Below are positions 47,661 to 56,803 of a DNA stretch of 64,000 nucleotides, one piece after another. The stretch spans positions 1,827,487 to 1,891,486 of the forward strand of contig JAJEKV010000049.1 of assembly GCA_021234155.1 (NCBI GenBank). Direction: 5' to 3'. Numbering within the stretch: position 1 is the first letter of the stretch; each line of letters starts with the position of its first letter. The stretch comes from Isoetes taiwanensis (lineage: Eukaryota; Streptophyta; Lycopodiopsida; Isoetales; Isoetaceae). A program made the position numbers and the translations under genes. Below the pieces are notes generated by a model. That model worked only from the letters and a program-made list of their open reading frames with translations. It searched no databases and had not been told where the DNA came from.

Positions 47661-47735
47661 TATATATATATATATATATATATATATATATATATATATA
47701 TATATATATATATATATATATATATATATATATAT
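47661..47735. repeat. (TA)n tract, left edge of the element
   Basis: 75 bases of pure TA. Confidence 0.97.
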
Positions 47736-48997
47736 CTGATCTATATATGTTCTTATGTTTGTCGCGCTTATCCGACCGTCCGTTCGAGATCCGACGGCTC
47801 ACGTGGATTTGGGACGTATCCTACGGCCCAGATGGCCTGGGAGTTTACATATAATATGTGTACCGCGGTCCTACGGTCCAGATTGATCTGATCTTGGCCG
47901 TCGGTGCGAGATCCGACGGCTCACATGGCTTGGGGACACATCCTACGGTCCACGTGGCTTTGGGAATTATATGTAATAGATCCTACGGCTCATATTGCTT
48001 TTATATGATGAGATCTTGATCGTTGATCGAGTTTAAGATCCTAAGGCTCATATTGAATGCTCGTTCCTTAAGGAAAGGCTTTTAAAATTTTTTTATGTTA
48101 TTGGGGTGATTCGAACCCTAGTCCTCAACCCCCCAAACCCCCCACTCTAACCACTAGACCAAGCATTAATTCTATGAAAAAATTATGTTTCAAATATACT
48201 TAAGGGTAATGTTTTAATTAAGATAAAATAGACTATAATATTCTAGGATGTTTTGAAACTTTCAAAATGTTCCAGAAAGTTCTAAAATGTTCTAGAAATT
48301 TCTAGAATGTAAGGGAATCCAGAAGAATTAAAGGGAATATAAGGAAATCTCATAAGTTGTAAGAGAATCTAGGAAAATATACAAGTCTAACGGAATCTCT
48401 TAAAATCTAATTGAATCTAAGGGAATCTTCATAATATCTAAGAGAATGTAAAAAAATCTTGATGAAATCTTAGAGTTTTTTTAAGATTTTGCAAAACGCG
48501 ACAATAGAATGTTCTAAAATGTTTCATAATAAAGGTGTACAATATAAATCTTGAAAAAAAAAATATTCTAGATGCACAAGGCAAGCGCTTTTAGTCTAAA
48601 AAATAGAAAATGTTTTAAAAATGTTGCCTGTGATCCAAAATAGATTATTTTAGAAGGTTTTAAATGCTCATGGGTTTTAAGATTTTGCAAAGAGCGACAA
48701 TAGAATGTTCTAAAATGTTTCATAATAAAGGTGTACAATATAAATCTTGAAAAAAAATATTCTAGATGCCCAAGGTAAGCGCCTTAGTCTAAAAATAGAA
48801 AATGTTTTAAAAATGTTGCATAGATCCAAAATAGATAATTTTAGAAGGTTTTAAATGCTCATGGGTAAGCACCTCAATCAAAATAGAAAATTCTAAGAGA
48901 ATCTAGGAGAATCCAAGAGAATCTCAGTAGAATCGTTGGTTATCTAGAGCACTATAGGGCCTTACATCGTAAGAACATGCTAAAACTGGAACAATGC
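47736..48997 (-). repeat. Long direct repeat (pseudo-LTR), left copy
   Basis: Aligns end to end with 55501-56767 with few substitutions and short A-run differences. On plus it begins CTGATCTATATATGTTC, has repeated phrases GATCCGACGGCTCAC and TCCTACGG, then the tRNA-like segment, then GAATCT-type and TTCTAGAATGT-type repeats, and ends AAACTGGAACAATGC. Confidence 0.95.
48103..48174 (-). promoter_or_regulatory. tRNA-like Pol III box pair in the left repeat
   Basis: On the minus strand TAGTGGTTAGAG (box A-like) is followed about 35 bases later by GGTTCGAATC (box B). Spacing and sequence fit an internal Pol III promoter derived from a tRNA. The G-rich middle cannot form a normal anticodon arm and the acceptor ends do not pair, so this is not a functional tRNA gene. 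It could be an embedded SINE head. Confidence 0.6.
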
Positions 48998-49026
48998 TGC
49001 CAGAGTAGGATTTTATTAATTAATTT

Positions 49027-49154
49027 TATATATATATATATATATATATATATATATATATATATATATATATATATATATATATATATATATATATATA
49101 TATATATATATATATATATATATATATATATATATATATATATATATATATATA
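49027..49154. repeat. (TA)n tract between RT and left repeat
   Basis: 128 bases of TA; the open frames over it are artefacts. Confidence 0.97.
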
Positions 49155-49276
49155 AGCTAACCCTACCGCCTACCGGACAGCAGAGGAGTACCTTAGTAAG
49201 TATAGGGACAGGAGGATCCCTATACTAGGGACCCCCCTGCCGACTGTACTCTATATGTTTTAAAACCTTCAAAAAA

Positions 49277-54745: not shown

Positions 54746-55358
54746 GCCAGGCGCTCCTCTGAATGGCCTTCAGACATCTATTATGTCTGATTACACCCGG
54801 CTGAACTTAAATCTTGGTGTGTCTGCTCGAAGGTATACAAAAATGTTCCCTATTTTGGCACCTTTTTCTCTGCTATACGTTCTTAGGTGTTCCGAAAAGC
54901 CGTTTGGCTAAAACAACCGGCAAAACTTTACTGGACCTAGTAAGCTGAATGCTTTACCTCTTAGTTTTCGCCAAGTATGGCGGATCTCCATCCCAAATCA
55001 TGATGGATGTATATTCTTGTGCTTGGTACAGATTTGCCTTGCTACTCATGTCGGAAAGTGCCGGAATATTTCTTGGTTGTCTCCTGCTGGATCGCTTAGC
55101 CGGATTAGGTCACGAACCCTATTTCTGTTAGGTCCAGCCCCTTTCGTAATCCAAGGTGTCACATTATAGACATAACATGCCAATATTGGGTATTCTAAGA
55201 TGTGTTAACAAGTAAAACCACTAACCATTGGTCCACCCTATTATTATAGGTTTCTATTTTTCGAAACATCTTTCATAGTTTTTTATCAATGACATAGTAC
55301 CATTTTTATGGACTTTAGAGACTAGGTGTCTACACCACAGATGGTATCCTTCACTTCA
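54746..55358. other. Leader of the element between direct repeat and first exon
   Basis: About 600 bases without long frames on minus. It should contain the 5' untranslated part of the first gene. A 98-108-codon plus-strand frame here is opposite to the element and is not convincing. Confidence 0.4.
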
Positions 55359-55490
55359 TATATATATATATATATATATATATATATATATATATATATA
55401 TATATATATATATATATATATATATATATATATATATATATATATATATATATATATATATATATATATATATATATATATATATATATA
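55359..55490. repeat. (TA)n tract between right repeat and leader
   Basis: About 132 bases of TA. Confidence 0.97.
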
Positions 55491-55500
55491 TCCCTTATAT

Positions 55501-56767
55501 CTGATCTATATATGTTCTTATGTTTGTCGCGCTTATCCGACCGTCCGTTCGAGATCCGACGGCTCACGTGGATTTGGGACGTATCCTACGGCCCAGATGG
55601 CCTGGGAGTTTACATATAATATGTGTACCGCGGTCCTACGGTCCAGATTGATCTGATCTTGGCCGTCGGTCCGAGATCCGACGGCTCACATGGCTTGGGG
55701 ACACATCCTACGGTCCACGTGGCTTTGGGAATTATATGTAATAGATCCTACGGCTCATATTGATTTTATATGATGAGATCTTGATCGTTGATCGAAGTTT
55801 AAGATCCTAAGGCTCATATTGAATGCTCGTTCCTTAAGGAAAGGCTTTTTAAAATTTTTTATGTTATTGGGGTGATTCGAACCCTGGTCCTCAACCCCCC
55901 AAACCCCCCACTCTAACCACTAGACCAAGCATTAATTCTATGAAAAATTTATGTTTCAAATATACTTAAGGGTAATGTTTTAATTAAGATAAAATAGACT
56001 ATAATATTCTAGGATGTTTTGAAACTTTCAAAATGTTCCAGAAAGTTCTAAAATGTTCTAGAAATTTCTAGAATGTAAGGGAATCCAGAAGAATTAAAGG
56101 GAATATAAGGAAATCTCATAAGTTGTAAGAGAATCTAGGAAAATATACAAGTCTAACGGAATCTCTTAAAATCTAATTGAATCTAAGGGAATCTTCATAA
56201 TATCTAAGAGAATGTAAAAAAATCTTGATGAAATCTTAGAGTTTTTTTAAGATTTTGCAAATAGCGACAATAGAATGTTCTAAAATGTTTCATAATAAAG
56301 GTGTACAATATAAATCTTGAAAAAAAAAAAAATATTCTAGATGCTCAAGGCAAGCGCTTTTAGTCTAAAAAAATAGAAAATGTTTTAAAATGTTGCACAA
56401 ATCCAAAATAGATTATTTTAGAAGGTTTTAAATGCTCATGGGTTTTTAAGATTTTGCAAAGATCGACAATAGAATGTTCTAAAATATTTCATAATAAAGG
56501 TGTACAATATAAATCTTGAAAAAAAAATATTCTAGATGCCCAAGGTAAGCGCCTTAGTCTAAAAATAGAAAATGTTTTAAAAATATTGCATAGATCCAAA
56601 ATAGATAATTTTAGAAGGTTTTAAATGCTCATGGGTAAGCACCTCAATCAAAATAGAAAATTCTAAGAGAATCTAGGAGAATCCAAGAGAATCTCAGTAG
56701 AATCGTTGGTTATCTAGAGCACTATAGGGCCTTACATCGTAAGAACATGCTAAAACTGGAACAATGC
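55501..56767 (-). repeat. Long direct repeat (pseudo-LTR), right copy
   Basis: Same content and order as 47736-48997. On the element's strand this is the upstream copy and would contain any promoter. Confidence 0.95.
55868..55930 (-). promoter_or_regulatory. tRNA-like Pol III box pair in the right repeat
   Basis: Same box A-like and box B pair as at 48103-48174, with one base difference between the boxes. In this copy the boxes stand upstream of the coding part, in the same orientation. Confidence 0.6.
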
Positions 56768-56803
56768 GCCGTAGGACGTATTAATTTTCTTGTATATATA
56801 TAC

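Follow-up and report, generated by a model that had tools for sequence, protein, structure and literature searches.

A TA-bounded element of Isoetes taiwanensis, probably an endonuclease-deficient Penelope-like retroelement with two undescribed proteins

The stretch analyzed here (the window) comprises 64,000 nucleotides of the lycophyte Isoetes taiwanensis (assembly GCA_021234155.1, contig JAJEKV010000049.1, positions 1,827,487 to 1,891,486 of the forward strand). A previous reading of the sequence alone had described its positions 47,661 to 56,803 as a whole-looking Penelope-like element of 9 kb, with a reverse transcriptase (RT) and a novel partner protein. We found a smaller unit of about 6.2 kb, with (TA)n on both sides, that encodes the RT, the partner protein of 555 aa (P555) and a short frame, O138. 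The unit probably belongs to an endonuclease-deficient Penelope-like element (PLE) family, i.e., a telomerase-related retroelement of Isoetes with tandem or partial-tandem units of about 6.2 to 8 kb, for which we propose a model of priming at TA ends. Endonuclease-deficient PLEs as a class have already been reported in plants, and the best reading is that we are dealing with a member of this class that is interstitial, TA-associated, probably spliced and equipped with two undescribed proteins.

The RT frame with its Penelope-type motifs, the second large frame and the TA tracts at the junctions (47661-47734, 49027-49154, and 55359-55490) are all present as the sequence-only reading had it. The extent of 9 kb gives way to a unit that runs from 49155 to 55358 between two (TA)n tracts, and ‘whole-looking’ does not apply to this copy, as its RT is out of frame near 50950. 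The window copy is laid out as follows.

49155..55358, minus strand: RT-element unit as a monomer, with O138, putative intron 1, P555, putative intron 2, RT and a structured block at the 3' end, borders compared with relatives L039-L042
55359..55490: (TA)n tract at the 5' end of the RT element, pure TA
54356..54769, minus strand: O138, putative first coding exon, with an acidic tail and a donor-like CAG/GT (exon end 54374)
53255..54373, minus strand: putative intron 1, with donor CAG/GT after O138 and acceptor CAG/GAAGG before P555, both in phase 0
53394..53408, minus strand: point X, a short TATATATAT run, positioned in the window by similarity only
51602..53269, minus strand: P555 partner frame, 555 aa, putative exon from 53254
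51324..51591, minus strand: putative intron 2, with donor CAA/GTAAGT, branch-type TACTAAC (51346-51352) and acceptor CAG/GCC
49277..51323, minus strand: coding region of the RT, with the frame broken near 50950 in the window copy
49277-51055, minus strand: RT frame of 592 aa with VFVADIS, GIPMGFASSP and RYIDDI
49155..49245, minus strand: conserved RNA block of two hairpins that adjoins (TA)n, with an approximate upstream limit
49027..49154: (TA)n tract at the 3' end of the RT element, pure TA

The N-terminal part of the RT forms a separate frame (51326-50940) upstream of the 592-aa frame, and a short deletion relative to the close copy L010 causes the shift near 50950. Intact relatives carry the N-terminal part and the RT in a single open frame, mostly of about 690-710 aa. 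A possible additional exon, the frame O105 (53736-54053), was dropped: of the five relatives compared, L039, the closest, is the only one with a match, and there the frames are broken.

The element belongs to a large family. The genome (1,658,258,908 bases in 1,110 contigs) yielded 1,804 matches to a degenerate DNA pattern for GIPMGF, against 22 for the reversed control, and seven out of eight pattern loci that were cut belong to the RT family (L001-L007), the eighth (L008) having no match. The sequence-only reading had proposed counting the genome copies and inspecting their flanks; among the close copies L010-L038, 28 of 29 have (TA)n behind the RT. Scoring was restricted to the best 74 of 4,182 RT candidates and the best 78 of 3,512 P555 candidates, which biases the share of intact copies upward; 65 of the 74 RT matches (over the matched part) and 64 of the 78 P555 matches are free of stops. 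At 46 of the 74 scored RT places, P555 is found within 3 kb upstream, on the same strand, and no other arrangement was found within 6 kb. The two coding regions thus travel together, and the outcome named in advance as refuting, that they never co-occur in other copies, did not arise. The figure of 46 is a lower bound because at least one of the misses (C57:65709, L043) does carry a broken P555. The RT copies are spread over dozens of contigs and share 48-91% identity with the window RT. Ratios of nonsynonymous to synonymous substitution (dN/dS) were 0.11, 0.08, and 0.04 for P555 and 0.18, 0.11, and 0.09 for RT (three unsaturated pairs of six each; saturation at dS left 6 of the 12 pairs without a ratio, and the window RT entered from its codon 37 onward), and 0.28 for a single pair of O138. 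These values point to purifying selection on P555 and RT. The window copy has been called a young insertion; it has no repeat of its own for dating, and the nearest scored relative lies at a dS of ~0.21 (RT) and ~0.26 (P555), which does not bear out that age. RT copies share contig C1056 with a plant-looking TERT and contig C1052 with a second rbcL frame; this speaks against contamination and agrees with the suggested plant-resident lineage.

The complete organization is best seen in the relatives. L039, L040, and L042 share the order (TA)n, region A (with O138), P555, RT, (TA)n and a second region A; L041 has the same order but no TA at the inner junction. Region A, carrying O138, is the direct repeat that the element itself possesses in these relatives, and it differs from the repeat R that flanks the window copy. 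Identity between the two copies of A is 98.3-99.1% in L039-L042 and 95.6% in L043 over the parts that the loci cover. In two elements (L042/L049 and L040/L050), the second A could be followed to its end at point X, which lies ~145-160 nt upstream of the P555 exon, and (TA)n comes next; a short TATATAT run marks this point in the inner copy. Judging the flanks by eye, 21 of the 28 copies with (TA)n behind the RT run on into a second A (partial-tandem) and seven into other sequence, as in the window. L027 has a long-running frame, yet the TA tract and then A are present. All five copies read at the 5' end have (TA)n there (the tract of L041 is interrupted), as do both copies read at the far 3' end, and tract length ranges from 10 to 138 nt among close copies. 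When 100 of the 1,804 motif places were inspected for neighbors within 10 kb, 20 were on the same strand (15 of them at 5.5-8.1 kb) and two on the opposite strand. A tandem array on contig C42 has a single period of 6,398 bp at 97.5% identity, with (TA)4 between the units. Tandem or partial-tandem units that form pseudo-long terminal repeats (pseudo-LTRs), a feature of PLEs, are present in this family, the window copy itself being a monomer.

Of the RT and accessory domains that mark LINE or LTR retrotransposons, the Pfam searches gave RVT_1 only. This profile matches all 15 RT members (best E 1.5e-7), the window RT scoring 19 bits, under the curated cut-off. A Penelope type had been assigned to this RT, and the fold search of its model against PDB is in line with a Penelope/telomerase type: the six best matches are all telomerase chains (E 8.1e-4 to 0.042, one <0.001), albeit from a weak model. 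We also take the RT to resemble PLEs in the CxC...GHI-TTD-IV and DK motifs. Pfam searches detected no endonuclease domain in RT, P555 or O138, which fits the endonuclease-less type expected from the sequence-only reading, and GIY-YIG had no match in 15 RT and 10 P555 proteins. Of the 121 GIY-YIG matches in the genome, the closest that shares a contig with any of the 74 listed RT places is 118 kb away from it, and the RT profile gave no match in six GIY-YIG loci that were cut. Prokaryotic relatives of the RT were searched and none was found. A repeated element was observed in L056, L058, L059, and L061, in which the C-terminus of a Pif1/RecD-like helicase (recognized by eye) is followed by a small GIY-YIG frame on the same strand; it is unrelated to the RT family and looks like a helicase-type DNA transposon.

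P555 contains seven Cys/His residues that are invariant in 10 aligned members (C228, C311, H324, C345, C350, C352, and C366), suggesting a zinc site. Its model (predicted template modeling score, pTM, 0.63) had no fold match at E ≤ 0.001 in BFVD (24 up to E 10) or in PDB (seven up to E 10). A weak sequence match to 4s1a (E 0.023) and weak Pfam matches in single members, the best being BNR_6 in one out of ten (E 0.0025), were not taken as homology. P555 is a conserved family without detected homologue, an orphan in which a hidden nuclease is conceivable. It is probably a zinc-binding and nucleic-acid-binding ribonucleoprotein (RNP) component with a role like that of ORF1 or gag proteins. O138 has no trustworthy Pfam match. 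Both O138 and P555 are undescribed proteins.

The coding regions are accompanied by conserved splice-like signals. All six copies compared (the window and L039-L043) have CAG/GA before P555, AGTAAGT past its stop, an AG acceptor ahead of the RT exon and AG/GTA at the RT end. Four of these six have the CAG/GT donor of O138, which is also seen in L039 as LLNQV. Of 35 loci (the window copy, L009, included), 28 have a branch-type TACTAAY in the 60 nt that precede the RT exon; the exceptions are L002, L004-L007, L036, and L037. The near twin YACTAAC occurs in 26 of the 35, against a background of 34 in 5,450 windows. In the six copies, TACTAAY always precedes the RT exon, and elsewhere there is one more in four copies and two in L039. 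Both acceptors match the O138 donor in phase 0, so that O138 could be joined to either P555 or RT. The RT element is therefore probably spliced, with O138 as a presumed first exon that would be joined to P555 or, if the P555 exon is skipped, to RT. Region A was also inspected by eye for a splice acceptor ahead of O138, and none stood out.

The conserved region between the RT stop and (TA)n folds into two hairpins. In the window, the fold of this block has an energy of -47 kcal/mol, compared with a shuffle mean of -35.6 (z -3.2). In an alignment of 27 sequences (26 of 32 extracted segments plus the window; L013 and the divergent L001, L002, L004, L005, and L007 were left out), 97.1% of the cells pair and seven pairs show a two-sided change, versus 1.7 in shuffles.

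The location of the copies and this block together suggest how the element might insert. Among 30 RT copies that were cut, 22 are located on contigs longer than 1 Mb, none of them closer than 237 kb to a contig end; contigs are not whole chromosomes, which limits the reading of these copies as interstitial. Their contig-end distances reveal no telomere association, the telomeric repeats themselves not having been searched. Given that the RNA block abuts (TA)n and that the copies appear interstitial, priming at (TA)n is the simplest transfer of the exposed-3'-end model of endonuclease-deficient PLEs. The unspliced RNA would serve as template. Where (TA)n microsatellites break, the (UA)n tract of this RNA, or its short UAUAUAU at X, would anneal to the exposed TA ends and prime cDNA synthesis, while the other cDNA end, also (TA)n, would join through the same homology. 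This annealing would stand in for an endonuclease. As a tentative history, it is possible that a PLE lineage left the chromosome end: (TA)n would have replaced priming on telomeric repeats, the structured RNA block (possibly an undescribed ribozyme, in place of the Terminon hammerhead) would present (UA)n to broken TA microsatellites, and cassette-exon skipping would join one N-terminal exon to either the zinc-binding RNP protein P555 or the telomerase-like RT.

Several observations weigh against the classification or the proposed mechanism. The placement among PLEs is a probable one, made from motifs, fold and an RT without endonuclease. The RT model (15 rows) is weak, with a predicted local distance difference test score (pLDDT) of 61.7 and a pTM of 0.45; its fold matches have TM-scores of 0.15-0.24, so that the telomerase likeness gives a direction rather than a clade, and the RT profile found nothing among PDB sequences at E up to 10. 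The window copy is a monomer with a broken RT, the RT frames in the C42 array unit are broken as well, and 28 of the 74 scored RT copies have no P555 match in the scored P555 set. The introns are read from conserved donor, branch and acceptor signals, that is, from DNA only. Concerning the TA association, TA is missing from the inner junction of one close copy, L015, which is the element also listed as L041. In the divergent lineages, the 330 nt past the RT stop contain (TA)4 and nothing longer in L003-L005, and not even (TA)4 in L001, L002, L006, and L007, so the association is not general. A control with the RNA block alignment slid by -3 likewise yields seven two-sided pairs, and the covariation of the block is accordingly modest. 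Hammerhead motifs occur in many PLEs. At the Rfam gathering threshold none was found in the window, a core scan found none in seven sequences, and a permissive scan of three loci returned six weak matches, none of which is a hammerhead; we do not regard the motif as obligatory in every PLE.

An alternative that we consider unlikely, yet take seriously, is that the TA association is passive, the element not seeking TA at all and entering by break repair or recombination, or (TA)n growing after insertion. This would agree with the variable tract lengths among close copies, with the divergent lineages devoid of TA tracts, and with the repeat R, which is TA-linked as well, so that TA tracts are plentiful. 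Against it, the ends coincide with TA at nearly every border read (28/29 on the RT side, 5/5 at the 5' end and 2/2 at the far 3' end), the conserved RNA block directly abuts the tract, and point X carries a short TA run of its own. It is rather improbable that the tandem arrays spread mainly as DNA, through unequal exchange or circles, with retrotransposition being rare: the near-identity of the C42 array units and the putative introns, which are kept in all six copies examined, would fit, but not the dispersal of copies with such divergent RTs over dozens of contigs, nor the recurrent fixed junctions. We regard an endogenous pararetrovirus or an LTR-type element as very improbable. Long direct repeats, several genes and TA flanks are compatible with it, and endogenous pararetroviruses are also known in TA-rich plant DNA. 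However, the scanned frames have no Pfam match to RNase H, integrase, protease or APE and no movement or coat domains, the fold neighbors of the RT are telomerases (no LTR-type RT is named among the 50 of 71 fold rows shown), pattern-based scans of viral contigs with the RT and P555 alignments gave no relative, and the units are arranged in head-to-tail arrays.

The RT unit is, in the window, enclosed by the following neighbors, the strand being given relative to the window.

47661-47734: third pure TA tract, at the outer edge of the first R copy
47735..49026, plus strand: R, first copy, independent TA-linked repeat, limits approximate
55491..56770, plus strand: R, second copy, independent TA-linked repeat, limits approximate

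The direct repeats of 1.26 kb that had been noticed do exist on either side of the RT unit; they are not the ends of the element and form a separate repeat family, R. The two copies align at 96.9% over 1,400 bp, TA tract included. A genome search in which only the best candidates were scored reported 135 matches, 43 of them spanning at least 1.1 kb, with the two in the window among them. R also forms tandem arrays of its own, e.g., four in a row on C1081. R-like sequence adjoins the RT copies L011, L024, L034, L040/L050, and L042/L049, with a 53-bp match in L003, and the 9 kb read of the close relative L039 contain no match. Because R has many other places and is missing from L039, it is a neighbor or landing site and not an end of the RT element. 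A composite element of 9 kb with terminal repeats of 1.26 kb, suggested by the symmetry of R around the RT unit, is rejected with hardly any probability left to it, as within the stretches read R occurs without RT and RT without R (as in L039), and the relatives carry different repeats of their own, O138 included. R itself, a 1.2-kb family joined head to tail by (TA)n and with internal sub-repeats of ~195 bp, may be a non-autonomous TA-end element.

Some further observations were made. A minus-strand frame of 451 aa in the window (11288-12643) resembles, by eye, a MULE/FAR1-type transposase. The second complete rbcL frame (L051, C1052:5415903, on an 11.4-Mb contig) differs from the copy on C840 (L052), beside which we recognized by eye what are presumably atpB and accD; among solved structures, the C840 copy matches 9chz best, ahead of the other chains listed. 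The genome has two separate Telomerase_RBD matches, of which L055 (C1062:4065477) has long Ser/Asn runs, unlike L054, and is possibly foreign DNA in the assembly.

This family, with well over 1,000 motif matches and with its placed copies inside long contigs, would show how a telomerase-like enzyme can live without DNA cutting. Priming at TA ends is a testable model for the relationship between telomerase-like enzymes and retroelements. Further additions are a conserved protein family for which no relatives were detected and, possibly, a switch by exon skipping from structural to enzyme products and back.

We take Coprina to be fungal endonuclease-deficient PLEs and Naiad/Chlamys to be canonical, endonuclease-bearing ones. 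Telomerase reverse transcriptase is the fold neighbor of the RT model; it differs from the Isoetes RT, which is a multicopy mobile unit with partner genes, and the two Telomerase_RBD matches of the genome are separate from it. The word Penelope does not occur in the main text of the Isoetes taiwanensis genome paper (PMC8566536), and a literature search for Isoetes and Penelope returned nothing on the subject, judged by titles. The endonuclease-deficient PLEs (Athena of rotifers, the elements of Selaginella, Pinus, and Picea, and fungal Coprina) have, like the Isoetes element, an RT without endonuclease. Such elements have plant hosts, as here, being reported from Selaginella, Pinus, and Picea (PMC9033089), which tempers the claim that an endonuclease-less type is unusual in plants. 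They are proposed to prime from exposed 3' DNA ends and are described as largely confined to chromosome ends (PMC3846280), while the Isoetes copies that were placed appear interstitial, TA-associated and very numerous. The Isoetes element further differs in having P555 and O138, with no hammerhead found in the scans, the Selaginella elements being compared by description only. Canonical PLEs encode one open reading frame with GIY-YIG (PMC11167929, PMC3846280) and the anole element has a hammerhead motif in its pseudo-LTR (PMC11167929), neither of which was found in the Isoetes family. Tandem units with pseudo-LTRs, in contrast, are common to the Isoetes family and canonical Penelope/Poseidon elements, including Dryad of conifers, in which reverse transcription starts inside the template RNA (PMC11167929), and the putative introns would have a counterpart in the tolerance of PLEs for introns (PMC3846280). 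Finally, Terminons are described as using a hammerhead next to telomere-complementary repeats where the template RNA ends on its 3' side (PMC12477314), and this juxtaposition of a simple repeat and a structured RNA is similar to that of (TA)n and the RNA block in Isoetes.

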